DNA of 64,000 nt, from positions 8,611,485-8,675,484 of the forward strand of contig OY986968.1 in NCBI GenBank assembly GCA_963920575.1, written 5' to 3'. The translations under genes and the position numbers were made by a program. Source of the DNA: Narthecium ossifragum (taxonomy: Eukaryota > Streptophyta > Magnoliopsida > Dioscoreales > Nartheciaceae). Below, piece by piece: positions 3,033-28,783 of the stretch (the stretch's first letter is position 1; the number at the start of each line of letters is the position of its first letter). The notes under the pieces were generated by a model, which did not search any database, was not told where the DNA came from, and worked only from the letters and a program-made list of their open reading frames with translations.

Positions 3033-5121
3033 TTGCTGTGGTTGTAGTTTTATTGATGATAATGACATTCACTGGAATTGTAATTTTTTTTTTTGGGTGT
3101 TGTTAATACTTGGGCATGATGACATTTTTTTTAAGTTCATGATGCCATGGTTGGTTGTAAAGGAGATTTCTTTTTGTGTATATGAAACATAGTCGGATGA
3201 ATGGCTTGATCTTTTCACTTGTTGGTTGTTATCCTAATGGTTGTATTGTGTTGTTATTCTAATGATAATGGGGACCTTGTGATGGTTATAATTTTGATTG
3301 GTGTATTGTGGAGAGTTGGAGGGTTATGGGTTGGTGTTCATTTTTGTATTCAGATGTAATCTGTGTTTTTGGTAAGTGAAATGAATGATCTACTCTTTGT
3401 ATTTTTATGTTAGAGGGTGTCTTTCTTTTATGTAAAGTATTCTCACAGGCTGTACGCATTTATGCTATCATCAATTTACAAAGGAGGTGCTGCCCAAATT
3501 TTTAGTATTATTCATGTCAATTCTGTTTCTTCCATGTTTTCAGGATATTGAACCAAGCCAACGATACTCTACAATCTTATCCTATCTTCAACCCAACACT
3601 CAATTTTTATTCACTTCAGTTCTCTAGTTTTGTTCATTAATCCTATGCTTCACATATGTGCAATTTGCAAGGTTGAACGTCTTATACGGTTCTCAAACAA
3701 CAGTCCAGGTTATCTCCTTCCTTTACCCTTCAATCGTGCTTGAGGACAATCCCGTTTAAGTTGGGGGGTATGCATTACATGCATGATAATCATTTTTGGT
3801 TATTTGATTTTTATTTACACTTGAAATGAGAGATACCTGCATTAATGATTATGTGAAACATTCAACTCAATTACCCTTTATGGATGATTGTGGTATGATA
3901 TATTTGAAACTTCACATAGTTATAAGGATGTGCTAATCATGATTTGGATACTATTGTTCATCTACTTTAACCCGCTTGATACATGTTAAAGTTGGTTGAG
4001 TAATTCATCATCATTGTATATTCGCACACTTATGAGGGGTTGATTAGTCAATTTGAGTTTGGTACCTTGAAGGATTAAGAAGTCGAAGGTAGGAAACATG
4101 TTTTGCTTAATCAAAAATGGCAATGCTCGTGTAGGGAAATCCGAAAGCTTAGTAACCGGGCAATGTGCGTAACAACGTGTATTGTTCGCGTCAAACAGCT
4201 TAGGAATGAAAAAATATATGAGTAGTGACTAGTTATAATTCGTAGCCTTTTGGGTTCGAGCAATTAAGTCTGAGGGGTGCTTTATCACCTAATGCCCTAA
4301 AGCCAACTGGTTTGGGAGTCATTGACCCAAAGCTCATTACAAGGACCTAGAAGAAAGCTTAAGGGATTATGACATTGCATAGTCGCATACTAATTGAAAA
4401 AAAATAAAAGAAAAAGAAAGAGAATATGTGTGATGACTAGTTATAATTCGTAGCCTTTTGGGTTTGAGCAATTAAGTCTGAGGGGTGCTTTATCACCTAA
4501 TGCCCTAAAGCCAACTGGTTTGGGAGTCATTGACCCAAAGCTCGTTACAAGGACCTAGAAGAAAGCTTAAGGGATTATGACATTGCACGGTCGCACACTA
4601 ATTGAGAAAAATATAAAGAGCAACCATGTTATATTTCAGCAAACATGTGGAATACTTGAGATGACTGAATCAGATTGGGCCTTATTTGGTTGATTTTGAA
4701 AACCCCAAATACGTGTGCGGTAACATCTTACACTTGGATTTCTTGACTATACTATAATAGTACTAAGTGCTTTAAAGTCCTTGAAGGGTAATAACCATAG
4801 CTTGATTAGCATATTTCTTATATTTGTGTGATTTGGAGAATATCATTATGCACATGATTCTATTCTTTGACATATGAGTAAATCTAGATCACATATGAAT
4901 TGATGTCTTGTATCTTGACATTTCAATTGTGAATGAGATGTTTGTGGGTATCATCACTGTAAACCCTCACGAGACAACACTCGTCCTCTAGGATAAACCT
5001 AGGGGTTTAACGGCTTGTTGCACATGCTAAGTGCAATCGTGAGTCCTACGAAAGTGGCTAGTTAGATTTTATTTGTTTTTTTGCTTTGCTCGAGGACTAG
5101 CAAAGTTCAAGTTGGGGGGTG
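3033..5121 (+). other. 3' non-coding part of gypsy element with 208-bp duplication
   Basis: There is no convincing ORF. It contains a first polypurine-like block (GTTTAAGTTGGGGGGT, about 3,755) and a second one next to the LTR. A segment of about 170 bp (from about 4,228) is repeated at about 4,435, a 208-bp step, with only a few differences. A motif around AGCTTAGTAACCGGGCA near 4,150 recurs in reverse at about 9,430, which links this element to the minus-strand relative. Confidence 0.6.
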
Positions 5122-5288
5122 TGATAAGTCACAAAATATACATAATTCACCCATTCAACTGAGCTTTGTTAGCTCTCAAGCAATGCATTTTTAATATCTT
5201 TTCATATGGCTTCAGGTACAAGAGCTTTCGAAGAGAGTTGCATGGATTTCGAACCAAAAGACATCAGTAAAACAGATCCAGACAATTT

Positions 5289-5781: not shown

Positions 5782-6839
5782 GGGGTTTTGGCTCTAATTT
5801 GGGGATCTTCTTTTCTCTCTGGTTCCCTCTCTTGACAGCCTTCTTCCCTCCTCTATATTCTTGAGTTTTCTCATCCAATTCCCAAGGATTTAGGGCTCGA
5901 AAGGTGGAGATCAATGAAGAAGATAGATGAAACCTCTCTTCCTATGAATCGTCCAACCAAGATGAGTAACTAAAATCCTCATCCTTGGGAATTCTATGAT
6001 GTCTTAGGTGTTATTTTTAGATTTCTCTTGTAATCTTTGATGTAATAACGTTTGTGAGATGGAATCTTTGTATGAATTCGGATTTAATTCCTTATTTCTT
6101 CAATAAAGTCTACTCTTGAATGGTTTGAGTATCTATATTTGCATTTAATTGCTCGAGTATTAGATGCATGTTAGGTATTTGATGAAATTCCTCAAAGAGT
6201 AGGTCATGTTAGAACCATGGCTAACTCTTGACCTTAGGATAGGATGATGAGGTGCTAGAACCACCTCAAGCTAAAGCTATCCTACTTACCATTCTTGACT
6301 TAGATGGAGGATTGGATTGAGGTATTAAATCCACCTCAATCCAAGACCTTAGTCATACAAAGCCTTGATTCCTTGCCAACAATAGGACCTTAAGACGGCA
6401 TTTGTTGAGCTATGATCGGATTAAAGCCTCGATCATGGATTTTCACCTTATAATTCACACGATGAGATGATCCTAACCCGACGTCTCATTAGCAACGAGC
6501 GATACTAATCCTACGCTCGTTGATCCCTAATTTCGACTATCTCATTTAAATGTTATTCATCTTGATTCATAAAGAAAATATTTAGACCTAATTCGGATTA
6601 GAATTCCCTAGGACTTCTTCCTTGATAAATCTCTTAGCGTTCAAGTGCTTCTAGAATACTTTAGTTTAAACAACTTTAAAATCAATCAAATTGTTTCCAA
6701 CTATTGTAGAGATTATATTGAATCCATTAATTTGACCATCTAATTCTCCGAGGACTCGACCCGTACTCCCACTAACTACATTGTAGTTAGCTATTAGTCC
6801 GGTAAATAGTTTTGTCCGTCTTTGATATACTTAACGACA

Positions 6840-8060
6840 TATTTCAAGGCGAGTCAAGGCCCTTGCTGGGGATGCATGCAGCTCGTCGATGTCGCCTACT
6901 ACTGGAGATGTGAGTTTGGCGCGAACGAGCTCGTTGCGACGGGCGATCACTGGGATCTAGTTTCTTCGAAGATCAGCGACGGCGCATGGCTTTCCTGGAG
7001 TTGAGGTTTCGCCTGCGTCGCGGGGCCGTCAGGGAGTGCCATTCGCCACGATCTGGTGTTGATCACGCGAGTTGCTGGAGACAGGGACGTCGCTGGAAGC
7101 TTGAAGTGGCCGAAGACCCTTGGACTAAACCATAGGATTGTCTGGAAGCAGGGGAGTCGCGGCTGGAACTTGAGGGCGCCTAGATCTGGGCTTCGCGGTG
7201 GTGAGAAGATGGCCGGAGCAGGAAACTTGCCGCTGGAACTTGAGGGCGCCGGCTGGAAACAGAGGAAACAGGGGAAGCTTTGTTTTTGAAGCCGCCGGAG
7301 ATGAGGGAGTGCTTGGATCTGATCTCCGTCGCCGTCGCCGTCGAGGAAGCTGACTGGAGCGCCTCGCTAGAGGTCTGGGCCGAGCGGAGGGATGGAGCTT
7401 GCGTCGTGAGTCCGGCGAAACTTCTTGCAGCGGCAACCCAACGACTAGAGCTTTGGATGGGTTCCGGCTGCGTCGACGGGATCGGCGTCTTCCGGTGGTG
7501 CACGACTTCAAAGCATCGACAGGACCTCGCCGTCTTCAAGCCTCCGAGCTCTTTTCGTCGCCTGCATGGGCATCTTGGCAAGACCTCGCCATCTATCTCC
7601 GGACGTCTCTCACAAACTCCCAGCAGAGCCTTCACGCCATCTTTGCCGCCGGAGCTTCTAAGTTCGTTGGGCGTGGAAGAGTTGTTGCCGTCCAAAGGGA
7701 CCAGATCTCCGTCGCCATGGGAGAACAGCAGCTGGACTTGATGAAGTCGGCTGGAGCTAGAGAAATGTAGACGCCGGCTGGAACAGGGGACATGCGGCGA
7801 GGGGAGAGGTGGAGCTTGAGCGGCGAGATCGACGAACCTCTTACAGCGTCGACCCAGAGACGCGAGCGTCTCGATGGGTTCCTGCTGCGTTGGCTGGATC
7901 TACGTCGTCCGGTGGCGCGCAAGGTTGGAGCGTCACTAGAACCTCTTCTCTTCCTTTCTTCCTCCGGCCTTTGTTTCTTTCTCTGCTTCTTTCTTATCTA
8001 CATTTTGCCCAGCCCCCCTATTCAGCCTTCACACCTTCTTTTATAGCCACGAGAGGTGAT
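6840..8060 (-). other. GC-rich degenerate tandem region, possible LTR leader
   Basis: GC-rich DNA with overlapping open frames on both strands but no recognisable protein. Segments repeat with changes: 7,434-7,518 resembles 7,852-7,936, and CTGGAACTTGAGGGCGCC occurs twice (about 7,160 and 7,230). On the minus strand GGCTATAAAAG near 8,040 followed by a purine-rich leader suggests a promoter reading leftwards, as in an LTR. I treat the frames as chance products of high GC. Confidence 0.35.
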
Positions 8061-9840
8061 CTTAATATGGGATGGAGAATCCTGATTAAGGGATACTAAT
8101 TGATGCTAATCCTTTTATATAAGGATAGCTCATATAATCCCACCATATTTAGAGATGCTGATTTTATTTTTATTTTTTTTATATGGTATGAGAATGCAAT
8201 CCAACCATAATTGAAGATGCTGATTTCTCATATGGTATGATATATATTTGATTTGGTTGATTTTATATGGGTAGACATTTTGTTTTGAAATTCGAATTTG
8301 AAATTCAAATGTTCAGATTTGAATTATCTGAATATTTGTCGAATTATTCAGATATTTGAAATATCTTATTTAACTTTAAATTTCGATATTTCATATAATA
8401 CTTTGGAAAATTTACTGAAATATCCCCGGGCAAGCCGGGTGTAAATTACCAAAATATCCTTTTTATCGGCCATATATTTTGGACCGAAATGTCTCCGGCG
8501 CAGATGAAATATCTCTGTTCCGGATTTTCACACCCCTGAAGGTGTAAAATGACTAAAATACCCCTTGGGGTTAAATGACCAAAATACCCTTTCGGTTTGG
8601 TTATTTAAGCGCGACGCATGGCGACGCGACTTCTGTGCGTGTCGTGGACACGTGCGCGTATATTTTTGTCGGGACTTAGGCGAATTTGAAGTCGGGTATT
8701 TGTTTGGGTTTATTTGAATTTTCGGATTTTTCCCTTGTTTATTTCAGGGAATTTTCTGTAATTTCCCAGATGTGGTGGAAAATTACCAAAACGCCCCTAT
8801 ATTTACACAGCTTATTTAGGATGCCATCAAAGCTATGTAAGGGCTATTTTGGAGTGTAGTGGGAAATTTAGACATGCATTTTAGTCTAAATTCCCAAAAT
8901 ACCTTTGGATGAGTAAAATTACCAAAATACCCTTATTCCTCCGGTTTGTATAGGATGCCGTCAAAACCGGGGATATGTAGGAGATTTGGATGGACTCGAC
9001 TGTGTATAAGCCAATTTGGGTTTGGTGCGTGCGGATTCAGCCCGGGGACTTCTGCAAATGTAGTCGACTTAGCCTTAGCTAAAATCGATGTCAACAGCGT
9101 CATCGGTACTAAAATTGCCGTAACTTCCTCTAGGAAACTCGGAATCACGAACCGTAAAATTCTCCAGAAACTAGACTTCAAGAGCTTGCCAACTATATAT
9201 GGCACATCATCTGGTTCTTCATGAGCAGGTACAGTTTAATTTTTAAAGTTGATCTATATACTCTTTTCAGCTTCTTTTCGAACTTAAGGACTTCAATTGC
9301 ATCATAAATTAAAATATAAGAATAATGAGTGTATTTAGGTATCAAATAAGCACAGGAGACTAAGTATTAAGGGATAAAAATATAACATTATGCATCATCA
9401 TCAACCATGCTGATTAGACACCCTGCCCGGTTACTAAGTTGAAAGCCTTACACTTGCCAACACATTTATTTGTTGCGAACAAAAAATTGCATGTGTTCAT
9501 GTATCTTCTATGACATGACAGAGAACTGTAGATCTATTCTAGTTTCATGCTCAGAATCTAACTTCAACTCCTAAACATGTGAAAGTGCTCAAGTGCAATA
9601 AGATCTGTCAAGTTATCTAAATCATGGTAAAAGTGTTAAAGTATAGAACTCATGTCATGCATAGCTAAATTTACTAAATCTTATATGATATATAAATTTC
9701 TGAATAATTCATAAGACAAATTTTTAAATCAAGCATCTTTATTAATAAGTCTCATAATTTCATTCTTCTGACATAATTTAGGGGATGTATAATAGTTGGT
9801 TATCATAAAATAAATAAATAAACATGAATTCCTAGAATTC
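8061..9840 (-). other. Decayed retrotransposon sequence, no gene
   Basis: It holds repeated phrases such as AAATTACCAAAATA and TAGGATGCCGTCAAA with AT-rich filler. The short frame at 8,946-9,224 has no family I recognise. Near 9,430 a reverse copy of the gypsy 3' motif (TTAGTAACCGGGCA in reverse) ties the right part to a minus-strand gypsy element. Confidence 0.35.
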
Positions 9841-17399: not shown

Positions 17400-17592
17400 A
17401 TGATTAGGACCAGGATAGAAAGTATGACCAAACATCCCGATTCGTGCTCGATATGTCTCGATGGCCTTTGTCACTTGGGGCACAGGCCAGTGACAGTCCT
17501 TTCATGCTTCCATGTGATTCACAATGATTGCCTCGATGGTTGGTGGAAGACAGAGATCTTGCCCGATGTGCCATTTTGAAGATGAAGACTGA
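17400..17592 (+). pseudogene. RING-H2 gene fragment
   Basis: From 17,445 the frame reads CSICLDGLCHLGHRPVTVL, then SCFHVIHNDCLDGWW. After one frameshift near 17,555 it reads RSCPMCHFEDED and stops at 17,590-17,592. All eight zinc-ligand positions of a RING-H2 finger are present but split between two frames. It is clearly a paralogue of the intact gene at 28,052. The 5' part is lost at the edge of the gypsy LTR. Its 3' flank (from 17,636) is repeated at 27,682. Confidence 0.75.
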
Positions 17593-17635: not shown

Positions 17636-17752
17636 AAGTGCTATTATTGATGTTTGTTTTGAGATGTAAACTTTGTTGTTTTTAAACCACTATTGAATTA
17701 TAATCTTTGAGTTCTTTTCTTTTAATGTATGAACACTCTATTTAAGTCATCC
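17636..17752 (+). repeat. Host flank duplicated on both sides of the viral block, left copy
   Basis: AAGTGCTATTATTGATGTTT onward is identical for 59 bp to the copy starting at 27,682, then about 85% alike for another 55 bp. It follows the broken RING fragment, so it is probably 3' untranslated DNA of a tandem RING gene family. Confidence 0.75.
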
Positions 17753-17876
17753 AAGAAAATAAAAACACTCTCTTTCTTGATGGCCGACTTAACTCTAATG
17801 CAGTTCCAGTGAGATGCAAATTGTTCCATATATGAATCTGTATTCTCTGATTGAAATTTAGATCTACTTAACATAA

Positions 17877-17945
17877 CCCTGACCAGCAAGGCGAAATCCA
17901 CGGCCACCACGGCGGCCACCACGATTATCCATACCACCACGACTC
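17877..17945 (-). pseudogene. Fragment of viral distal ORF
   Basis: Reverse copy of about 25,817-25,885, the Gly/Arg-rich start of the distal ORF. It ends at the filler before the telomere tract. Confidence 0.8.
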
Positions 17946-17954
17946 AGTATCTTG

Positions 17955-18002
17955 AGGGTTTAGGGTTTAGGGTTTAGGGTTTAGGGTTTAGGGTTTAGGG
18001 TT
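17955..18002 (+). repeat. Interstitial telomere repeat tract (TTTAGGG)n
   Basis: About six and a half perfect AGGGTTT units, on the + strand, lie exactly between two viral fragments. Ten bases of filler (AGTATCTTGA) precede it. The repeat is the usual plant telomere unit. It marks a repair junction, not a chromosome end, because viral and host DNA continue on both sides. Confidence 0.95.
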
Positions 18003-18262
18003 CAGTTGTACATGGATTTACGACCTAATAGTCCCCTCAGGAGATACCTCAATGAGGAATTTCAAAAGTTATATAATAAACAGTTTCGCGACTGGTTTTT
18101 TGCAACTTTCAATGAAGAACAAAGAAATTCTTATAAAGAATTATACTTTAGAGAATTAGAAGTTAATAATCAGCTTCAGTTTTTTGCTGGATGGTTTTAT
18201 AATCATTATACTAATGAAAAAGAGGATGAAATAAATGCTATTATTGATCAAATTGCTGACAT
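18003..18262 (+). pseudogene. Fragment of viral ORF2, inverted
   Basis: Inverted copy of the first 85 or so codons of the ORF at 20,887-21,609 (starts MDLRPNSPLRR). It is joined at about 18,262 to capsid sequence in the other orientation. Confidence 0.85.
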
Positions 18263-18977
18263 TTATTAATGCTCCATAAGTGCAAGACTCGAAGGGGATT
18301 ATACCACCATTCTGTTCCCGCATATAATTTCTCACACGTTCAGCAAATAGATTAGGTAATCCATCAATGAATTTTGACTTCCAATGACTACTATGAGCGT
18401 CATTTAATTGCATAACGCGGGTAATAAAAACGTCTTTATACCAGCGAAAATGGGTAAGAGTAGGGCAACGAAGATTTTGCAACAAAGTGCGTGTTCGCTC
18501 CCCCTGACCAGTGAGATTACCAGTAAAATGGTTCATGGACTTTAAGTCTAAAAAGCCAATTTTATAGATTTCCTTATTTGGAACATCAGGGATAGCCCAG
18601 TTATTTAGAGCTTCTAATTCTGAAGGAAATTCAGCTAATTGAGCATTTTTTAATTTTTTATCTTTTCGTGAATTAATTTTCCGAACAGAGGTTGAAGCCA
18701 TGATTACTCGAGGTGGGTAGGCTTAATTAAAGTAAGATGAGTAAGAAGAAGTATTGGTGCAGGTTTCTTGCTTACTAAGGTTTCGTTATAAATCAATATA
18801 AACTTTTGCTCGTCTGCCAACGAATCATAGGACTTACCCTAACGCTAACTCTAGCAACCGGTGCCAAACGCGGCTTGGATGACGATCCACAAAAGCAGTA
18901 TAAAAACTTAGAGAACGAAATCCTAGTAAACAAGAACATAAACACCAATACTGCTAATAATCACATCTTGCTCTAAT
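18263..18977 (-). pseudogene. Joined fragments: capsid, movement protein start, leader
   Basis: 18,263-18,530 copies capsid DNA at about 20,113-20,384. From about 18,530 it switches to the start of the movement protein and its leader, as at 22,418-22,858. The two leader copies differ at about one base in 270 (GTAGGCTT against GTAGACTT). The open frame across the joint is an accidental chimera. Confidence 0.85.
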
Positions 18978-20865
18978 AAGCTTTAGGAAGCTTAAAATTA
19001 ACTTCTAATTTATTACCACTAGCGCCGCTAAGAGCTTGAGTAGTTTTTTCAAAGAATTTAGAAGGAATAATTCCTTCACGAATACAATTTAAATCAGCAC
19101 CACTATCTATTAAAGCAATTAATTTTGGGATAGTCTCATATTCTGAGAGGACAAGAGTAATTTCAACATACCATTTTTGAGTAGTAACTTGTTGTACAAG
19201 TTGTACCAGAAATTCTTCTTCGGGACTCTTAGAACATTGACCAGTCTCAAAAACCGCTTGGTTACTGGTATTTGGTGGAATTTCTAAATCTTTTGTTTCA
19301 ATGTATGAAAGTATATAGTCATTTTGTTCTTTAAGCATTTTAATTTCGCTTTTAAGGTTATTAACCTCTTTGTTAAGTTCTGCAAGAGATAGAGTCTTAA
19401 CAGTCTTTTCTTGTCTTCGTCTTAAAACTTCAGACAGTCTATATGTATTGTCAATTCGAGGGGCTTCAATCTTTTGATTATGTTTTAAACACATATCAAT
19501 CATCTGAGCTTTAAGATCAGGAGCTATGTCTCCTTCAGTTAAAAGCTTAGCAATAAAATCTTTATTGAAGGATATCATATTAATAGAAAGGTTATTCATT
19601 TCAACAATCTGTTTCCAATAATCAGTTTTATCCTTCTTAGAACATTTAGTACATTTATGTTCATCTTCTGAAGATATTTCTTCAGTACAGTCAGTGGTAG
19701 ATTCAGCATATTCTATTGAATTATCAGTGTCGGAATCAGTAGTAATCATAACCTTATATAAAGATTTCTTTAATCCCTCGTCTTCTATTTCATTAATTTT
19801 TTTCTTAGTATAACATCGATTAGCGTAGTGGCCAATTTTACCACATTTAAAGCATTTTGCTTTACTTTTATCTATTTTAGGTCGTTTTTGAGTATTACCC
19901 TTTTGTGGTATAGATTTCTTAAATTTCTTTTTAAAAAAGGGTTTTCTCCTATTTTCTATTCGTTCAGGAGGTGGTTTCAGCTTTCGAGGTTCATCAAAGG
20001 CAAACTGCTCGCAGAATTCTCCAAGCTGTCTCTTTTCAGTAAGTTTATGCGTTTTTAATTGATGTTTTAATTTAATATCATTACATAAACTTAATCCTTC
20101 ATGAATGCAAGCATTTATTAATGCTCCATAAGTGCAAGACTCGAAGGGGATTATACCACCATTCTGTTCCCGCATATAATTTCTCACACGTTCAGCAAAT
20201 AGATTAGGTAATCCATCAATGAATTTTGACTTCCAATGACTACTATGAGCGTCATTTAATTGCATAACGCGGGTAATAAAAACGTCTTTATACCAGCGAA
20301 AATGGGTAAGAGTAGGGCAACGAAGATTTTGCAACAAAGTGCGTGTTCGCTCCCCCTGACCAGTGAGATTACCAGTAAAATGGTCAAGAATAGTTAAAAC
20401 TAATGTGTAAACCGCATCGGTTTGTTGTTGATTATTTTCAAGTTTAACAGCACTAAGGATTTCAGTGCGTTGATCAGGTTGAAGATAATTATCCCACCAA
20501 CCTTTCAGACTACCAGTAAAACCACAAGTAAGAAAAGAAGCTACCTGTTGATCAGTATTACCATTATTATGGCAAATAGTAGAATACATCATCATTCTAT
20601 GTGCCATATTCAGAACTTGATGATCACTCATACCATCAATGTTCCATTCGTAAATATTACGTCCTGAGTAATCTTGTTGTAGAAATGTATCGTTTTCTTC
20701 AAATAAAAGATCTATAGGAGAAGGTCGTTTATAATAAAAATTTTCAATATTACGAGGTCGATGTTCAATTTTATTAACAGTTTGAAATTGTTGTTCAGTT
20801 TCTAAGGTTATATCCTCAGTATCAGAACTTTCAGATTGTTTGAGGTTTATGGAATCATTAAGCAC
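18973..20865 (-). CDS. Viral capsid and aspartic protease part of the polyprotein (truncated)
   Basis: A 630-residue frame. Residues about 70-260 form the capsid-like region (GWWDNYL, FIDGLPNLFAERVRNYM). A basic stretch precedes the zinc knuckle C338-C341-H346-C351, which binds nucleic acid during assembly. An acidic region and a helical, probably coiled-coil segment (LNKEVNNLKSEIKMLKEQ) follow. The aspartic protease motif is at residues 587-590 (DSGA). The frame ends at a joint with leader DNA at about 18,977, so the protease is cut and the following RT part is not attached; RT is found on the other strand at 24,302. Confidence 0.85.
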   Translation of the reverse strand: MLNDSINLKQSESSDTEDITLETEQQFQTVNKIEHRPRNIENFYYKRPSPIDLLFEENDTFLQQDYSGRNIYEWNIDGMSDHQVLNMAHRMMMYSTICHNNGNTDQQVASFLTCGFTGSLKGWWDNYLQPDQRTEILSAVKLENNQQQTDAVYTLVLTILDHFTGNLTGQGERTRTLLQNLRCPTLTHFRWYKDVFITRVMQLNDAHSSHWKSKFIDGLPNLFAERVRNYMREQNGGIIPFESCTYGALINACIHEGLSLCNDIKLKHQLKTHKLTEKRQLGEFCEQFAFDEPRKLKPPPERIENRRKPFFKKKFKKSIPQKGNTQKRPKIDKSKAKCFKCGKIGHYANRCYTKKKINEIEDEGLKKSLYKVMITTDSDTDNSIEYAESTTDCTEEISSEDEHKCTKCSKKDKTDYWKQIVEMNNLSINMISFNKDFIAKLLTEGDIAPDLKAQMIDMCLKHNQKIEAPRIDNTYRLSEVLRRRQEKTVKTLSLAELNKEVNNLKSEIKMLKEQNDYILSYIETKDLEIPPNTSNQAVFETGQCSKSPEEEFLVQLVQQVTTQKWYVEITLVLSEYETIPKLIALIDSGADLNCIREGIIPSKFFEKTTQALSGASGNKLEVNFKLPKAY

Positions 20866-20886
20866 TTGAACTTTAGCTTGAGCAAA

Positions 20887-21609
20887 TTATTTACTCAGAG
20901 AATCTATAAGTTCTTCGGATAACTCCTTTCCTAATTTAAAATTTGAGATTGAAGCATTTGGTTTAATAGCAGGTTTAGTATGAAGCCTAACTGTTTTATC
21001 TTTTATCAAATTTGCATTAGGAATAATTTCTCCAAGCTTATTGATAAGTTTATCAATAGTTTTTTCTAGACGAGTTAATTGTTGCCCTATTACTTGAGAA
21101 AAAACATTAGAGTAATTATTTTGTTTAAAAATTTTATTCAACTCTTTGATTGTTTCATTTGTTGATTCAACAGGTTTTATAAACGCAGTTGCTTCAAGAT
21201 TAGAAGTGGAAATTCCTTCAAGTTTTAGGGGGTCAGTTGGAGGATATAAGGATCTCTTTTGAACACCTTCAACTGTTTTCCAGCTTTTAAAGTGTTCTTC
21301 AATAACGTTTATTCTGGCAGTAGGATCTAATTCCTCATCAATCTGTCCAGAATTATGCTCGTCAGCAATTTGATCAATAATAGCATTTATTTCATCCTCT
21401 TTTTCATTAGTATAATGATTATAAAACCATCCAGCAAAAAACTGAAGCTGATTATTAACTTCTAATTCTCTAAAGTATAATTCTTTATAAGAATTTCTTT
21501 GTTCTTCATTGAAAGTTGCAAAAAACCAGTCGCGAAACTGTTTATTATATAACTTTTGAAATTCCTCATTGAGGTATCTCCTGAGGGGACTATTAGGTCG
21601 TAAATCCAT
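20887..21609 (-). CDS. Viral ORF2, coiled-coil protein
   Basis: A 240-residue ORF. Its ATG (21,609-21,607) directly follows the TAA of the movement-protein ORF, the tight packing usual in caulimovirids. The N-terminal half is Tyr/Phe/Glu-rich (LNEEFQKLYNKQFRDWFF). Residues about 165-205 look like a coiled coil (LTRLEKTIDKLINKLGEI), and the end is basic. Position, size and coiled coil suggest a virion-associated protein like ORF2 or ORF3 products of related genera. That is an inference from layout, not from sequence match. The frame is intact. Confidence 0.65.
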   Translation of the reverse strand: MDLRPNSPLRRYLNEEFQKLYNKQFRDWFFATFNEEQRNSYKELYFRELEVNNQLQFFAGWFYNHYTNEKEDEINAIIDQIADEHNSGQIDEELDPTARINVIEEHFKSWKTVEGVQKRSLYPPTDPLKLEGISTSNLEATAFIKPVESTNETIKELNKIFKQNNYSNVFSQVIGQQLTRLEKTIDKLINKLGEIIPNANLIKDKTVRLHTKPAIKPNASISNFKLGKELSEELIDSLSK

Positions 21610-22584
21610 TTACAACTGAAAACTTATTTCGGAATCTGATTTAGATTCCTTCTCGTAAATCCCATGAGGGATTTGGGTCTCAGATATTCTAATAGCCTGA
21701 AGAGGGGTACCTTCACTAGAGACCGATTTCCTAGAAGAAGTTGTAACATCAGTATATTTTATAGTCCTATTAGGATCAAAAGTTATAGTAACTTCACCAT
21801 CATCAGTTTGGGATATTTGATCAACTTGTTGATTAATAATAGGTCTATGAGGGACAGCATTTGTTAGTAACCAATTCTCAGGAAAATTAACTTCAGTCCA
21901 TTTTATCTGTCTATTTGTAGCAATATGGGAAGACAGTAGATTAGTTTCTATTAAAACTGTTTTTCCTGGAAGGGTATATTGTTTTGCTCTAGGGGCTAAG
22001 GTACTTAGGACCTTATAATGAATTCTATAAACAATAGCTATGGTCTCGGATTGAGGTAAGAATTCATATCCGTGAGTCTTCATATTAAGACTTACAGCTT
22101 CCAAAATATTAGGATCAGTTAAGGATAAACTCAAATTTGGATAAACATTAAAGTATACGGGTCCATGACTTAAGCTGGTTTCCATTATTCCCATTAAGGA
22201 TTGAGGCCAATTAAGACAACGAGCATCTCTAAGACAAGAGAGAAGAGAAGCATTTAATCCTTGCAAAGTTAGTGGTTTATAAGCCACCTGAATTAAACCT
22301 ATATGGACGTAATTATATTTTTCCATATAAGGTTCTAAATCTTCTTCTGCAAGAAGCTTAATAGTTTGATCTTCCTGATCTACGGTTACTGTTTTTTCAA
22401 CAGTTTTAATTGCTATCATGGACTTTAAGTCTAAAAAGCCAATTTTATAGATTTCCTTATTTGGAACATCAGGGATAGCCCAGTTATTTAGAGCTTCTAA
22501 TTCTGAAGGAAATTCAGCTAATTGAGCATTTTTTAATTTTTTATCTTTTCGTGAATTAATTTTCCGAACAGAGGTTGAAGCCAT
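21610..22584 (-). CDS. Viral movement protein (30K-type)
   Basis: A 324-residue ORF starting at ATG 22,584. Residues about 85-215 carry the caulimovirid movement-protein pattern: YVHIGLIQVAYKPLTLQGLN, then LRDARCLNWPQSLMGIMET and GPVYFNVYPNLSLSL. Such proteins move virus between cells through plasmodesmata. The C-terminal 100 residues are polar and probably disordered. The frame has no break in this copy. A second, partial copy of its start is at 18,530-18,701, and a short piece is at 24,221-24,292. Confidence 0.85.
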   Translation of the reverse strand: MASTSVRKINSRKDKKLKNAQLAEFPSELEALNNWAIPDVPNKEIYKIGFLDLKSMIAIKTVEKTVTVDQEDQTIKLLAEEDLEPYMEKYNYVHIGLIQVAYKPLTLQGLNASLLSCLRDARCLNWPQSLMGIMETSLSHGPVYFNVYPNLSLSLTDPNILEAVSLNMKTHGYEFLPQSETIAIVYRIHYKVLSTLAPRAKQYTLPGKTVLIETNLLSSHIATNRQIKWTEVNFPENWLLTNAVPHRPIINQQVDQISQTDDGEVTITFDPNRTIKYTDVTTSSRKSVSSEGTPLQAIRISETQIPHGIYEKESKSDSEISFQL

Positions 22585-22892
22585 GATTACTCGAGGTGGG
22601 TAGACTTAATTAAAGTAAGATGAGTAAGAAGAAGTATTGGTGCAGGTTTCTTGCTTACTAAGGTTTCGTTATAAATCAATATAAACTTTTGCTCGTCTGC
22701 CAACGAATCATAGGACTTACCCTAACGCTAACTCTAGCAACCGGTGCCAAACGCGGCTTGGATGACGATCCACAAAAGCAGTATAAAAACTTAGAGAACG
22801 AAATCCTAGTAAACAAGAACATAAACACCAATACTGCTAATAATCACATCTTGCTCTAATAAAATCTACACACTACTCGACACTACTCATAC
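22585..22892 (-). other. Viral leader between primer site and movement protein
   Basis: Non-coding leader read on the minus strand. It is repeated almost exactly at 18,702-18,977. No ORF of note. Confidence 0.6.
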
Positions 22893-22906
22893 ATGGCTCT
22901 GATACC
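22893..22906 (-). other. Initiator tRNA-Met primer-binding site, minus copy
   Basis: Minus-strand TGGTATCAGAGCCA, the complement of the plant initiator tRNA-Met 3' end and the usual caulimovirid start of minus-strand DNA. The leader continues ATGTATGAGTAG, which shows the normal sequence next to the site. Confidence 0.9.
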
Positions 22907-23037
22907 AAAGTAAACGAAGGGGTATTTTTCAGATGATCTTATCTCAAAGAGACTGGCGCTCGATGCTGCCGATCCTTTTGAAGGGATCGGAAGGTAGAAC
23001 TGAACTATGAAAGTTCCAGCCTTGGGATAAGCGTTCC
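22907..23037 (-). other. Viral 5' leader fragment, minus; head-to-head joint
   Basis: Reverse copy of 23,486-23,614. At about 23,037 it meets plus-strand viral DNA (end of the distal ORF), the main inversion point of the block. Confidence 0.75.
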
Positions 23038-23614
23038 ATCATTTCCCAAGATCTGCCCGGGAAAAAGAAGGATGGTCCTACCACTAGTGGAGCTTCCACT
23101 AAGGATAAGGAAGGACATGGTGGAACTTCCACTAGCTATGGATAAGCTTCAGCGGCTTATGATGTGATTCTAAAGGTAATTGATCTGCCACTCACTCGAC
23201 TGCAAACCAACTCAGCACACGAAGTGGCGGGCCCTACCTTTTGAGCATTATTGCTCCACTAAGCCGACAGGATTGAAAGAGAAATATTCTCTCAATAATG
23301 TAGCTTTACTTAGCCTTGAAGGCTTGTACCTCTATATAAGAGGAAGAACTCTTCTGAGTTCAGTACGCTGGTTTTCACCCACTCTCCTCTTGTAACCTCT
23401 CTTCCCTTTGTAATCAAGAACCAGTGGAATATAGCTAAGCATTTGTAAGTATCTTCTTCTTAATACTTGCTTTGGGTAATTTTTGGAACGCTTATCCCAA
23501 GGCTGGAACTTTCATAGTTCAGTTCTACCTTCCGATCCCTTCAAAAGGATCGGCAGCATCGAGCGCCAGTCTCTTTGAGATAAGATCATCTGAAAAATAC
23601 CCCTTCGTTTACTT
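23038..23614 (+). promoter_or_regulatory. Viral promoter/leader module, copy 1
   Basis: It runs from the end of the distal ORF through a TATA box TATATAAG (23,333-23,340) and the leader to the primer site. Copies 2 and 3 start at about 23,859 and 27,070. Where they overlap they are almost identical (one difference noted, ACTTGCTTTGGG against ACTTGGTTTGGG). The 71-residue frame starting MICHSLDCK in each copy lies in the promoter and is probably not a gene. Confidence 0.75.
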
Positions 23615-23628
23615 TGGTATCAGAGCCA
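23615..23628 (+). other. Initiator tRNA-Met primer-binding site, plus copy
   Basis: TGGTATCAGAGCCA followed by TGTATG. After that the viral sequence stops and the reverse complement of a tRNA-Glu with CCA begins. Confidence 0.9.
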
Positions 23629-23632
23629 TGTA

Positions 23633-23708
23633 TGGTTCCGTTGCCGGGACATGAACCCGGGTCTCTCGGGTGAGAGCCGAGTATCCTGACCAACTAGACT
23701 ACAACGGA
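23633..23708 (-). tRNA. tRNA-Glu(CTC) copy with encoded CCA, likely reverse-transcribed
   Basis: The minus strand folds as a full tRNA: acceptor stem TCCGTTG/CAACGGA, anticodon stem CTCGG/CCGAG, loop CTCTCAC with anticodon CTC, T stem CCGGG/CCCGG, discriminator A at 23,636. The 3' end continues with CCA (23,635-23,633), which plant nuclear tRNA genes do not encode. The T loop reads TTCATGT, so the invariant A58 is T; this also damages the pol III B box. Both ends are exact tRNA ends, and both flanks are viral. I infer a cDNA of a mature tRNA; a transcribed gene is unlikely. Two of the CCA bases could also come from viral TG at the joint. Confidence 0.85.
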
Positions 23709-23858
23709 GATGGTCCTACCACTAGTGGAGCTTCCACTAAGGATAAGGAAGGACATGGTGGAACTTCCACTAGCTATCCCCTTCGAGTCTTGCACTTATG
23801 GAGCATTAATAAATGCTTGCATTCATGAAGGATTAAGTTTATGTAATGATATTAAACT
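23709..23858 (+). pseudogene. Viral fragments: distal ORF end and inverted capsid piece
   Basis: 23,709-23,776 repeats the end of the distal ORF (as at 27,099-27,166). 23,777-23,858 is an inverted copy of capsid DNA at about 20,063-20,144. The frame through both is a chance chimera. Confidence 0.8.
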
Positions 23859-24220
23859 ACCACTAGTGGAGCTTCCACTAAGGATAAGGAAGGACATGGT
23901 GGAACTTCCACTAGCTATGGATAAGCTTCAGCGGCTTATGATGTGATTCTAAAGGTAATTGATCTGCCACTCACTCGACTGCAAACCAACTCAGCACACG
24001 AAGTGGCGGGCCCTACCTTTTGAGCATTATTGCTCCACTAAGCCGACAGGATTGAAAGAGAAATATTCTCTCAATAATGTAGCTTTACTTAGCCTTGAAG
24101 GCTTGTACCTCTATATAAGAGGAAGAACTCTTCTGAGTTCAGTACGCTGGTTTTCACCCACTCTCCTCTTGTAACCTCTCTTCCCTTTGTAATCAAGAAC
24201 CAGTGGAATATAGCTAAGCA
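23859..24220 (+). promoter_or_regulatory. Viral promoter module, copy 2
   Basis: Same module with TATA box at 24,112-24,119. It stops at TATAGCTAAGCA (24,220), where copies 1 and 3 continue into the leader, so it lacks a primer site. It lies about 190 bp upstream of the RT frame. Confidence 0.75.
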
Positions 24221-24292
24221 TCCATTATTCCCATTAAGGATTGAGGCCAATTAAGACAACGAGCATCTCTAAGACAAGAGAGAAGAGAAGCA
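24221..24292 (-). pseudogene. Short movement-protein fragment
   Basis: Copy of 22,181-22,252 in the same orientation, 72 bp, placed between promoter copy 2 and the RT frame. Confidence 0.8.
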
Positions 24293-24301
24293 ATAAATTT
24301 T

Positions 24302-25795
24302 TTGAAAGAAGAAATTTCTTATGTTCATTTAGAACAACAATTACAGAAGCCCGCTACTAAAGATCTAATAGAACAGATTGATAAACAATTTCAACAATCG
24401 GTTTGCGGCTCTGTTCCTAATGCTTTTTGGGACAGGAAAAAACATATTGTGGAATTACCTTATGAAGATTCTTTTGATGAACGGAATATTCCGACTCGGG
24501 CAAGACCTTGCCAAATGAATCAAGAATATCTTGATTTATGTAAAAAAGAGATTGCTTCTCTAATAGAGAAGAAATTAATTAGAAAATCTTACTCTCCATG
24601 GAGTTGTACAGCATTTTATGTGAACAATAATGCTGAGAAAGAACGAGGTGTTCCTCGTCTAGTTATCAATTACAAACCTCTTAATAAGGTGCTTAAATGG
24701 ATCCGTTACCCTATCCCTAATAAAAGGGATTTACTTAATAGAATTTATAAAGCAAAAGTTTTTTCTAAGTTTGATTTAAAATCAGGATATTGGCAAATTC
24801 AAATTAACGAAAAAGATCGTTATAAAACAGCCTTTACCGTTCCTTTTGGACATTACGAATGGAATGTAATGCCATTTGGTTTGAAAAATGCTCCTTCTGA
24901 ATTTCAGAATATTATGAATGAAATTTTTATTCCTTACACTAACTTTATTTTATCATATATAGATGATATACTCATCTTTTCGGATACCATTGATCAGCAT
25001 GTGAAGCATTTAGAAATATTTAGACATTTAGCCATTCATAACGGATTAGTCATATCAGCTCCAAAAATGAAACTCTTCCAAACTGAAATACGATTTTTGG
25101 GCCATAATATTGGAAAAGGAACAATTGTCCCTATTGATCGTAGTATAGAATTTGCCTCTAAATTTCCTGATGTTATTACTGATACTAATCAACTACAGCG
25201 TTTCCTAGGAGCATTAAATTATGTTTCAGATTACTATAAAGATTGGGCTCAAGATACTGCCATCCTTTATAATCGTTTGAAAAAGAATCCTGTCCCTTGG
25301 ACTAATGACCATACTAATGCTGTTCGACTAATTAAAACTAAGGTCATCAATCTGCCTTGTACACATCTGCTTAAGCCAGAGTGTCAAAAGATTGTAGAAA
25401 CGGACGCCAGTAATATTGGCTATGGAGGGATTCTTAAACAAAAATGTCTGCCTTCTAATAAGGAAGAATTAGTTCGTTATACCTCTGGTAAATGGAACTC
25501 TACTCAACTTAATTATTCCACAATCAAGAAAGAAATGCTTTCTATTATTAAATGCCTTTATAAATTTCAGGAGGACATCTTGAATCAACCTTTCATTCTT
25601 CGTATTGATTGTAGCTCTGCAAAGAGTGTTATTGAAAAAGATATTAAAAATCTAACATCTAAACAAATCTTTGCTCGATGGCAAGCTGAATTAGCTGTGT
25701 TTGATTTCACTATTGAATTTATTCCTGGTAAACATAATGTTTTACCTGATTTTCTTACACGCGAATTTATTCAGGGTGCTCATGCGCCGGACTGA
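24302..25795 (+). CDS. Viral reverse transcriptase and RNase H (polyprotein part)
   Basis: A 497-residue open frame beginning inside the protease-RT linker. RT motifs are in order: PRLVINYKPLN (about 118-128), FSKFDLKSGYWQI with the first catalytic Asp (about 154-166), PFGLKNAPSEFQ (191-202), YIDD at 219-222, and FLGHNIGKG. RNase H covers about residues 355-490 (VETDASNIGYGG, then EMLSIIKCLYKF and LRIDCSSAKS). This copies viral RNA into DNA. The family identity is clear from the VPFGHYEWNVMPFGLKNAP pattern. The N-terminal part of the polyprotein is on the other strand at 18,973. I see no frameshift or stop in this piece. Confidence 0.9.
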   Translation: MKEEISYVHLEQQLQKPATKDLIEQIDKQFQQSVCGSVPNAFWDRKKHIVELPYEDSFDERNIPTRARPCQMNQEYLDLCKKEIASLIEKKLIRKSYSPWSCTAFYVNNNAEKERGVPRLVINYKPLNKVLKWIRYPIPNKRDLLNRIYKAKVFSKFDLKSGYWQIQINEKDRYKTAFTVPFGHYEWNVMPFGLKNAPSEFQNIMNEIFIPYTNFILSYIDDILIFSDTIDQHVKHLEIFRHLAIHNGLVISAPKMKLFQTEIRFLGHNIGKGTIVPIDRSIEFASKFPDVITDTNQLQRFLGALNYVSDYYKDWAQDTAILYNRLKKNPVPWTNDHTNAVRLIKTKVINLPCTHLLKPECQKIVETDASNIGYGGILKQKCLPSNKEELVRYTSGKWNSTQLNYSTIKKEMLSIIKCLYKFQEDILNQPFILRIDCSSAKSVIEKDIKNLTSKQIFARWQAELAVFDFTIEFIPGKHNVLPDFLTREFIQGAHAPD

Positions 25796-27173
25796 GCCCC
25801 CTCTTTGGGGGCGGTGGAGTCGTGGTGGTATGGATAATCGTGGTGGCCGCCGTGGTGGCCGTGGATTTCGCCTTGCTGGTCAGGGTAATACCCTGGAATC
25901 TGGTCAGACTTCTGATCCTTCTAAAACCAATGAATCAGACTTCGGGAATAGCTGGAGAACAATTCGGCGAAGTAATACTTCTAAAGCTAAGGAAATTAAT
26001 CCTCAGAATCGGCCTCTTGAATCCTTTGCTGATGTTACTACCAAAGAAATTGATCTTGGTATGATAACCAAAGCAGCCTACGAAATAATTCTTTACATAG
26101 AACCCGAAGATATGTGCTACTCTGACAATCCAGAGAAATTGCGCCAAAAATATTTGGACAATTCCTATTATCCTACATCTGTTTATCATCCGAGAAAATG
26201 GATGGAAGCTTTATTATCTCAGAGAGAAGTTTATTTTGAACATTTCTTCAAAAATTCTGATGAGAGAAAGCCACCTACTTATAGTAAGTGTACTATCAAG
26301 AATATCTTGACCCCAAAAGAATGGGGATTCAGCACTCAGAAACCCATTGCCTTCAAAATTAACCAAGAAAGTTATACTTTCAATTATTGGGATTATAAGC
26401 ATGCTTTTTACACCTCCCTATTATGCGAAAATGAAAATTTGAAGCATACGTGGTTTATTAAGATTTGCCCTGAAGTCCTTCATAAGGAATTTCCGGCTTG
26501 GATTTATGATTGGTGGCGCAAATATGGCGCTGAATTAGAAATTCTACCAGCACCAATTCTTGCACTCTATGATAAATGGGTATCTACCCATCCTATTCTT
26601 GCTCTAATTAAAGAAGAAGATGTGATCGAGGGTATGTTCCCCCTTTTCTTCTTTGCTGAGACAGAGATTCCTTGGATTTGGAAGTGGTTCGCTTCGGTGG
26701 ATATCGACGAACTTTGCAGTCCTTGTCTTATTCGACAATATCAAATCAAATGGTGGAAAAGTCTAGACACTAATACTAAGGTCTCTGAAATTCAAGAGAT
26801 TATCAAAGTTAATGAGAAATTATTATCAGAAAAGAGAAAAGGTCTTGAAGCTCCAAAAGAGAGATCAATGATCCGGCTTCAAAAATTGTTCGAACGACAA
26901 TTTCCTCAGGCCACTGAGAATGAAATCATGAAGAAATGTTATGAACATTTAAAACATCAGTTCACTAGCCATTTCTCTGGCTCTGATAGAATTTCTATTA
27001 GCTCTGACGAGGCGATGCAAGATGCTCAAGACCCTTACGGTGATCAAGATGATCTGTGGACCCAAATCATTTCCCAAGATCTGCCCGGGAAAAAGAAGGA
27101 TGGTCCTACCACTAGTGGAGCTTCCACTAAGGATAAGGAAGGACATGGTGGAACTTCCACTAGCTATGGATAA
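25782..27173 (+). CDS. Viral distal ORF, unknown function
   Basis: A likely start is ATG 25,782, which overlaps the RT stop by 14 bases; the frame itself is open from 25,701. It starts with an Arg/Gly-rich segment (MDNRGGRRGGRGFRLAGQ) that could bind nucleic acid. The body is rich in Trp and charged residues (FPAWIYDWWRKYGAELEIL, IPWIWKWFASVD, YQIKWWKSLD). The C-terminus is Ser/Asp-rich and disordered. Position after RT is that of a distal caulimovirid ORF, some of which are translation transactivators, but I cannot support that function from the sequence. Confidence 0.7.
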   Translation: MRRTEPPLWGRWSRGGMDNRGGRRGGRGFRLAGQGNTLESGQTSDPSKTNESDFGNSWRTIRRSNTSKAKEINPQNRPLESFADVTTKEIDLGMITKAAYEIILYIEPEDMCYSDNPEKLRQKYLDNSYYPTSVYHPRKWMEALLSQREVYFEHFFKNSDERKPPTYSKCTIKNILTPKEWGFSTQKPIAFKINQESYTFNYWDYKHAFYTSLLCENENLKHTWFIKICPEVLHKEFPAWIYDWWRKYGAELEILPAPILALYDKWVSTHPILALIKEEDVIEGMFPLFFFAETEIPWIWKWFASVDIDELCSPCLIRQYQIKWWKSLDTNTKVSEIQEIIKVNEKLLSEKRKGLEAPKERSMIRLQKLFERQFPQATENEIMKKCYEHLKHQFTSHFSGSDRISISSDEAMQDAQDPYGDQDDLWTQIISQDLPGKKKDGPTTSGASTKDKEGHGGTSTSYG

Positions 27174-27635
27174 GCTTCAGCGGCTTATGATGTGATTCTA
27201 AAGGTAATTGATCTGCCACTCACTCGACTGCAAACCAACTCAGCACACGAAGTGGCGGGCCCTACCTTTTGAGCATTATTGCTCCACTAAGCCGACAGGA
27301 TTGAAAGAGAAATATTCTCTCAATAATGTAGCTTTACTTAGCCTTGAAGGCTTGTACCTCTATATAAGAGGAAGAACTCTTCTGAGTTCAGTACGCTGGT
27401 TTTCACCCACTCTCCTCTTGTAACCTCTCTTCCCTTTGTAATCAAGAACCAGTGGAATATAGCTAAGCATTTGTAAGTATCTTCTTCTTAATACTTGGTT
27501 TGGGTAATTTTTGGAACGCTTATCCCAAGGCTGGAACTTTCATAGTTCAGTTCTACCTTCCGATCCCTTCAAAAGGATCGGCAGCATCGAGCGCCAGTCT
27601 CTTTGAGATAAGATCATCTGAAAAATACCCCTTCG

Positions 27636-27636
<1 letters not shown>
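27174..27636 (+). promoter_or_regulatory. Viral promoter/leader module, copy 3
   Basis: It follows the distal ORF directly, as in a normal viral genome. TATA box at 27,361-27,368. The leader stops at CCCCTTCGTT, shortly before the primer site, where a TA repeat begins. Confidence 0.75.

Positions 27637-27682
<46 letters not shown>
27637..27682. repeat. (TA)n microsatellite at the viral/host joint
   Basis: About 22 TA units run without interruption between viral leader and host DNA. The repeat is the right edge of the viral block. Confidence 0.95.
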
Positions 27683-27684
<2 letters not shown>

Positions 27685-27796
27685 TGCTATTATTGATGTT
27701 TGTTTTGAGATGTAAACTTTGTTGTTTTTAAACCACTATTCAATTATAATCTTTTAGTTCTCTCCTTTTTATTGTATGAACACTCGGTTTAAGTCA
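27682..27796 (+). repeat. Duplicated host flank, right copy
   Basis: Matches 17,636-17,752 (59 bp identical, then some differences). It lies upstream of the intact RING gene. Confidence 0.75.
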
Positions 27797-27994
27797 TCCT
27801 ACTTAAAATAAGAGCTTACTATATATATATATCCAAGATTCCAAATCCTAGTAATTAGAATGACATAAGATAGTGTTATATTTGCAAAAAGATGTGTGGT
27901 TTATGGATCCGATTCCTACTAGGAATTGTGCCTATAAATTAGTTTCCAGTTAGACTGGGATCCAAATCAGAGTAGCAGTCGGAGGATCTTCTGC

Positions 27995-28051: not shown

Positions 28052-28783
28052 ATGGACAACTACTCCTACAGAACCCGAAGCTTCATGGTGTTCCTCGACG
28101 CGAAGCAGAGCCCAGCCAAGGCCGAAGCCCAGCAAGCATCGCCGCCATCGGACTGCACGGTGGCTCTAGAGTTCCAGGTGGATCACCGCCATCGCTTCTG
28201 CTCGCGTCCGCTTGGCGGCAGCAATACAGTGGACCACTCAGTCCATGTAAGCCGCAAGCGCTTTTTTCGTCGGATCCACCCGTCAGTGTTGCTCCAACCG
28301 GAGACAACATCTCTAGTCCTCAGTGATACAATCTCTTCGGGAACAGCCGGGAAGTGGGGTTTCTTGCACCGCTACATGTCGGCGTTCTCGCACCATGCGG
28401 CGGCGGAGGCGATGATGAGAAGGAAGGGAGGCGGCGGCGAGCTGTCTCGACTTATTTTCAGGATTAAGATCGATTCCATGTTCGAGCGAGACATTGATCA
28501 AAGAGTGGTTCCGGGCCTTCTGGCCGATGCTGCCGCCGGCGTTTCAACTCCGAGCGGCTGTTGTTATTGCAGCACCTGCTTGTCAGCTTTGTCAAATGCT
28601 TCGGAGTCGGATTACAGCGACCGGTGCTTGCCGGAATTGTGTCCGATATGTCTCGACGCGCTTTGTCCGTTGGAAGGCAGGCGGGTTACAATACTACCGT
28701 GCTTTCATGTGTTCCACGACGACTGCCTCAGGGTTTGGAGGGAGACCAGAAGTTGTTGCCCGGTCTGTCGCTCAGAAGACTAA
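28052..28783 (+). CDS. RING-H2 finger protein, probable E3 ubiquitin ligase
   Basis: An intronless 243-residue protein. The C-terminal RING-H2 finger has all ligands: C197, C200, C217, H219, H222, C225, C236, C239 (CPICLDALCPLEGRR, CFHVFHDDCLRVW, CCPVC). Such fingers bind an E2 enzyme and pass ubiquitin to a substrate. The N-terminal 190 residues have no domain I recognise; there is no clear membrane segment, so it is probably soluble. It includes a Gly-rich basic patch near 123-130. A broken paralogue lies at 17,400-17,592, so this is a small tandem family, split by the viral block. The substrate is unknown. Confidence 0.85.
   Translation: MDNYSYRTRSFMVFLDAKQSPAKAEAQQASPPSDCTVALEFQVDHRHRFCSRPLGGSNTVDHSVHVSRKRFFRRIHPSVLLQPETTSLVLSDTISSGTAGKWGFLHRYMSAFSHHAAAEAMMRRKGGGGELSRLIFRIKIDSMFERDIDQRVVPGLLADAAAGVSTPSGCCYCSTCLSALSNASESDYSDRCLPELCPICLDALCPLEGRRVTILPCFHVFHDDCLRVWRETRSCCPVCRSED

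Follow-up and report, generated by a model that had tools for sequence, protein, structure and literature searches.

The 64,000-nt stretch of DNA analyzed here (the window; C6:8611485-8675484 of a 379 Mb Narthecium ossifragum assembly) carries, inside a rearranged endogenous caulimovirid, a complete DNA copy of a mature tRNA-Glu(CTC) with viral sequence on both sides. A reverse-transcribed mature tRNA is strongly supported as its source. The most likely event is that, as minus-strand DNA was being started, the viral reverse transcriptase (RT) made a copy of tRNA-Glu, through mis-priming or a template jump, with end joining of the product afterwards.

The tRNA copy and its viral surroundings

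The array spans 17876..27637. It is an endogenous caulimovirid lying inside host contig C6, with movement protein (21610-22584, minus strand; Pfam MP, 4.3e-17), coat protein (18973-20865, minus strand; Pfam, 7.7e-10) and RT/RNase H (24302-25795, plus strand; Pfam RVT_1, 1.9e-37) domains. Its primer-binding site is of the tRNA-Met type, with a 14-nt core match to tRNA-Met. A search with the movement protein found 55 relatives, some from named plants and the best at 55% identity; a search with the RT confirmed none in the viral contigs covered. Both orientations occur among the pieces of this virus, which are 99.6-100% identical. Comparison of ten duplicate pairs selected within the array shows 3 differences in 2360 sites (0.13% divergence); the array is therefore young. 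At the eight array joints examined, the tRNA joints included, microhomology is limited to 0-2 nt.

The borders of the array have features of their own. At the left edge, six TTTAGGG telomere-type units (17959-18000) sit between two viral pieces as if they were filler, and on the right the array adjoins (AT)n at 27638. Three viral insertions pass straight into (AT)n or (TA)n in this way (window 27638, L029:8287 and L031:2816). On the two sides of the array, the host flanks at 17636-17752 and 27682-27799 match each other at 93% with the same orientation, and 17449-17565 resembles 28644-28762, within a RING-finger ORF, at 73%; the array may accordingly lie within a tandem duplication. A search with a RING-finger ORF gave one weak match, at 28% identity. 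A second viral lineage (L038, L039, L040, L041 and L042), 90-94% identical to the window, is represented on C1 and C10 by pieces that cover the same extent. In one of its members, L040, the pieces at 2012-5228 (plus) and 5813-9029 (minus) face one another and form a large inverted repeat.

The tRNA copy lies on the minus strand at 23633..23708, with base 1 at 23708, the discriminator at 23636 and T58 in place of A58. Read along that strand, tRNA-Glu (23708..23636) is followed by CCA (23635..23633), TACA (23632..23629) and TGGCTCTGATACCA (23628..23615). The initial annotation had described a complete minus-strand tRNA-Glu with CCA beside the primer site; this is read directly in the sequence, and both ARAGORN and Rfam agree. 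ARAGORN calls tRNA-Glu with anticodon CTC at 23633-23708 (minus) as the sole tRNA in the window, and the Rfam tRNA model is matched end to end by the same interval (63.9 bits, E 1.5e-11). The boundaries of the copy are thus base 1 and base 76 of the mature molecule. An A-rich tail and a target-site duplication, the expected marks of a LINE-mobilized tRNA retropseudogene or a SINE, were not seen by eye around 23633 and 23708, which makes such an origin unlikely.

On the 3' side, the tRNA meets a viral piece at 23038..23634 (plus strand) that contains the purine tract, the promoter region with a TATA-like TATATAA at 23333-23339 (by eye), the leader and the primer site, and stops at the tRNA; 23038-23609 equals 27066-27637 at 99.8%. 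The primer site with the next viral bases occupies 23615..23634 (plus strand). Sequence comparison identifies an undisturbed second copy in the window, with no tRNA, at 22880..22907 (minus strand). From 22907 downward it reads TGGTATCAGAGCCATGTATGAGTAGTG; in the copy at 23615, TGGTATCAGAGCCATGTATG gives way to tRNA. Across the joint position the native viral reading (22907-22880, minus) is ...CATGTATG followed by AGTAG, so that TG at 23633-23634 is both native viral sequence and the complement of the CA end of the tRNA. Because these two letters belong to virus and tRNA alike, the viral part stops 18 to 20 nt past the primer-site start, and just one letter of the CCA is an addition in the strict sense: only 23635 is neither viral nor, for the host gene L009 described below, gene flank. 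The HIV primer site is 18 nt long (PMC13191261). A copy of tRNA-Met at the joint was also considered and rejected, the letters past the core being viral, as they are in 21 of 23 viral primer sites.

The viral sequence on the far side of the tRNA had been missed earlier. A second viral piece (23709..23777, plus strand) is joined to base 1 of the tRNA and is 100% identical to 23071-23139 and 27099-27167. Directly past the first base of the tRNA the sequence reads GATGGTCC, and the native context of this piece is GGGAAAAAGAAG followed by GATGG, with the break inside a purine tract: the piece starts with the last 2 nt of a 14-nt run of purines. This run (GGGAAAAAGAAGGA, native copies at 23059..23072, plus strand, and 27087-27100) is the proposed polypurine tract, or plus-strand primer. 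It is the second longest of six runs of at least 11 in the two viral stretches examined, and it lies within the end of the last listed ORF (25701-27173), upstream of the promoter. According to the ICTV profile (PMC7660458), polypurine stretches prime caulimovirid plus-strand DNA, and discontinuities are left at priming sites of both kinds. The run is a candidate for the functional tract.

The tRNA is confined to a single primer site. A scan of 36 stretches for TGGTATCAGAGC with at most one mismatch gave 26 sites, three of which (L029:8694, L029 minus 53 and L034 minus 18) were dropped as non-viral by their flanks. The stretches came from match lists, one of them with 40 of 79 candidates scored, and the counts are lower bounds. 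Among the 23 viral sites, 21 continue natively, that of L045 is cut within the site, and only that of the window bears a tRNA. Other tRNA-virus fusions, which the initial annotation had suggested looking for, were absent from the other 22 sites, and the idea of a standing tRNA-like element of the virus was rejected on the same count. ARAGORN detected no tRNA in 43 other fetched stretches, some of them overlapping; this shows rarity and does not discriminate capture from other routes. Another TGGTATCAGAGCC site, at window 57684, has unrelated flanks and is perhaps the primer site of an LTR retrotransposon.

Host tRNA genes and the probable RNA source

When the joint was searched against its own genome, the 20 candidates, all of which were scored, comprised the window, eleven tRNA-Glu places and eight viral primer-site places. 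The eleven are eight tRNA-Glu(CTC) and three tRNA-Glu(TTC) genes. The same joint is found nowhere else among these 20 matches. A pattern search for plant tRNA-Glu returned 0 stretches in a collection of genome contigs and 0 in one of viral contigs.

The gene comparison proposed in the initial annotation supports an RNA origin: neither T58 nor CCA is present in any of the eight nuclear tRNA-Glu(CTC) genes found. The statement that A58 is the only invariant position changed also holds, and T58 is the sole difference from gene L009 (C9:142573-142645), which is identical to the copy at 72 of 73 bases. The other seven genes differ from the copy at base 21 as well, and one of these, L011, continues with a single C after base 73. 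Although the search may overlook genes, a gene bearing T58 would outscore L009, which on sequence identity is the likely source gene. A nuclear tRNA gene as such is excluded, since A58, no CCA and non-viral flanks would be expected where T58, CCA and two viral flanks are found.

Why is position 58 the one that differs? At the divergence of the locus, 73 bp should hold about 0.05 changes, and the odds that a random change falls on position 58 are 1 in 73. The initial annotation attributed T58 to misreading of m1A58 by a reverse transcriptase. This fits the gene comparison and the m1A58 signature described as ubiquitous in Arabidopsis nuclear tRNAs in PMC11658184, a general statement rather than one on tRNA-Glu(CTC), for which the modification is putative. 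m1A58 is also the usual stop when the HIV primer is copied in plus-strand synthesis (PMC13191261). Taken together, the ends that coincide with those of the mature tRNA, the CCA and the altered position 58 strongly support the RNA origin.

Viral ends and the route of the tRNA

To judge whether the position of the joint carries meaning, ends of viral pieces were mapped in 13 stretches (the window array, L029-L037 and L043-L045), giving 73 in total. L038-L042 were omitted because at 90-94% identity match ends may follow divergence, L027 because it is overlapped by L037, and L046-L063 lie outside the count. Matches below 90% or shorter than 30 nt were excluded, as were ends within 6 nt of the reference ends, adjacent to N or at the edges of the stretches. 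A 26-nt interval at the primer site holds 8 of the 73 ends, from six stretches and with the joint counted (7 of 72 without it), whereas the maximum in any 26-nt window of 5000 random sets is 5. The members are L029, L032, L033, L034, L045, window 23634 and window 27637. Seven of the eight retain the upstream side of the primer site, as expected if the DNA ended at the minus-strand start. Positions v3344-3354, 15-25 nt before the joint, account for six; one is inside the site (v3361), and the joint itself (v3369) is the farthest.

Two smaller clusters were found. At the purine tract, 4 of 73 ends fall within 20 nt (3 of 72 without the joint), all of them plus-sense starts and from two loci only; 675 of the 5000 random sets reach at least 4 ends in some 26-nt window. 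The third has four ends at v1524-1549 (window about 25817-25842, with L035 and L036) in a GGTGG-rich coding stretch. It matches no known natural viral end and counts against a reading in terms of natural ends. The clustering suggests that natural ends were often joined, at least at the primer site. It works in two directions, supporting a tRNA-bearing viral DNA end yet making plain end joining at this place less surprising.

Three routes yield identical DNA: a wrong primer, a jump of the plus strand to a free tRNA, and capture of a tRNA cDNA. The best explanation, held with moderate confidence, is that tRNA-Glu(CTC) acted as the wrong minus-strand primer and was reverse transcribed whole during viral DNA synthesis. 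Priming accounts most directly for a minus strand beginning at the joint, and the polarity is as expected, the CCA end facing the primer site and hence the minus-strand start region. The strand and order invoked in the initial annotation for a wrong-primer or template-switch event thus agree with the polarity and with a nearby natural viral DNA end; the event is itself unproven, and the 3' end of tRNA-Glu has only 2 bases paired (UG) with the template at the joint. Viral stretches offer tRNA-Glu pairing sites of 4 to 6 bases, with 4 at the primer site itself, and the 2-nt pairing speaks against simple base-paired priming. Such an overlap would better suit end-to-end jumping, in which a plus-strand 3' end at ...CATGTATG would switch template through a 2-nt microhomology (TG/CA) to a mature tRNA-Glu that was free, beginning at its CCA end, and copy it to the 5' end, the tRNA being a template and never a primer. 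The DNA product would be the same as with priming, and a parallel is offered by HIV variants that contain tRNA-Asp or tRNA-Glu sequence of 63-65 nt (PMC12220202). However, the jump requires a plus-strand 3' end 18-20 nt past the primer-site start, and at that place the sequence is the viral one of the native copies, with no copy of tRNA-Met; we consider this route somewhat unlikely. Less probable again is a capture route, in which end joining would have taken up, as filler between two ends of viral DNA, a tRNA-Glu cDNA that an RT of any kind had produced elsewhere. In its favor, the array is stitched together at joints with 0-2 nt of microhomology and has its telomere-type units and (AT)n border, and viral ends at the primer site were often joined anyway. 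Yet capture requires a full-length double-stranded tRNA cDNA whose CCA end met the primer-site end by chance (1 in 2).

Two explanations that dispense with an RNA template are very improbable. The first invokes a DNA-level copy of a nuclear tRNA gene in which chance letters completed the CCA and A58 later mutated to T. Identity with L009 at 72 of 73 bases is compatible with it, as are the one C that follows base 73 in L011 and the two CCA letters that are also viral. It would nonetheless demand that the copy stop exactly at the gene ends, that CCA arise by chance (1 in 64) and that the m1A site mutate in a locus whose duplicate pieces have diverged by 0.13%, while a copy from L011 would take two changes. 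An assembly or chimera artefact has just as slender a chance. The near-identical repeats of the array could allow mis-joins, but a mis-join alone would not yield exact mature ends, CCA and T58 together, and the joint sits within a 28.6 Mb contig.

The preferred account, wrong priming by tRNA-Glu, may be set out as follows. A mature, CCA-tailed host tRNA-Glu(CTC), probably carrying m1A58, would have entered viral DNA synthesis and served as the wrong primer for what was presumably the viral RT, the plus strand then copying the whole tRNA. The resulting tRNA-bearing DNA end would have been joined to the viral piece beginning at the proposed polypurine plus-strand start, and the array would subsequently have been inserted into the chromosome via end joining, this order being itself inferred. 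The mechanism rests on one event in one assembly. If it is true, insertions of plant viruses can record individual errors of reverse transcription to the letter, the trace of an RNA modification among them. It would further suggest that endogenous caulimovirids were assembled from DNA with natural termini (the primer site and perhaps the polypurine tract). CCA-tailed tRNAs at primer-site ends across plant genomes would then report primer fidelity and m1A58 read-through, which are hard to observe in caulimovirids.

Comparison with known systems

The initial annotation knew of no described example. Retroviral cases do exist for MMLV and HIV (PMC12220202), although none was found for caulimovirids; the open PMC literature, a scope that mostly leaves aside subscription journals, yielded no tRNA copy in a pararetrovirus or a plant insertion. 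Since reverse-transcribed tRNAs at MMLV and HIV DNA ends are known, the kind of event is not new. Rearranged multicopy arrays, inverted pieces and a (TA)n bias are shared with other endogenous caulimovirids (PMC10377300), and the word tRNA is absent from the main text of that review.

Among the closest parallels is the MMLV circular DNA with tRNA-Gly between two LTRs reported by Colicelli and Goff in 1986 (described in PMC12220202), likewise a reverse-transcribed non-cognate tRNA at a viral DNA terminus. They put forward the same model, in which the tRNA wrongly primed the minus strand, was copied during plus-strand synthesis and stayed in place when the DNA circularized (PMC12220202). The MMLV tRNA lacks four 5' bases and was found in a cloned episomal circle, whereas the present copy retains base 1, is fused to a caulimovirid, lies in a plant chromosome and is changed at position 58. 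For HIV, the account in PMC12220202 describes a CCA that adjoins the viral DNA end and was read as evidence of an RNA intermediate, as here; it differs in that five 5' bases are missing and the match to the gene is perfect over 67 nt, with 58 unchanged, and its authors favor self-primed copying. A change at 58 is therefore not a general result. The hairpin-induced tRNA-mediated recombination of HIV-1 likewise builds tRNA-Glu or tRNA-Asp into viral DNA, but as partial tRNAs (63 and 65 nt) in nef that replace an engineered hairpin (PMC12220202). A mitochondrial retroplasmid shares recognition of a 3' CCA end by its RT and a tRNA at the element-end junction; it differs in being self-primed, with a tRNA structure terminating the plasmid's own transcript.

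Tentatively, this may be the first pararetroviral case in which a tRNA other than the initiator served as primer, was copied whole and left a visible m1A58 scar; the chromosome would then preserve, as a fossil, a single round of plant-virus reverse transcription that went wrong. Relative to the retroviral examples, what is new is that the tRNA is complete at its 5' end, that position 58 is changed and a likely source gene can be named, and that the product is preserved as a chromosomal fossil.
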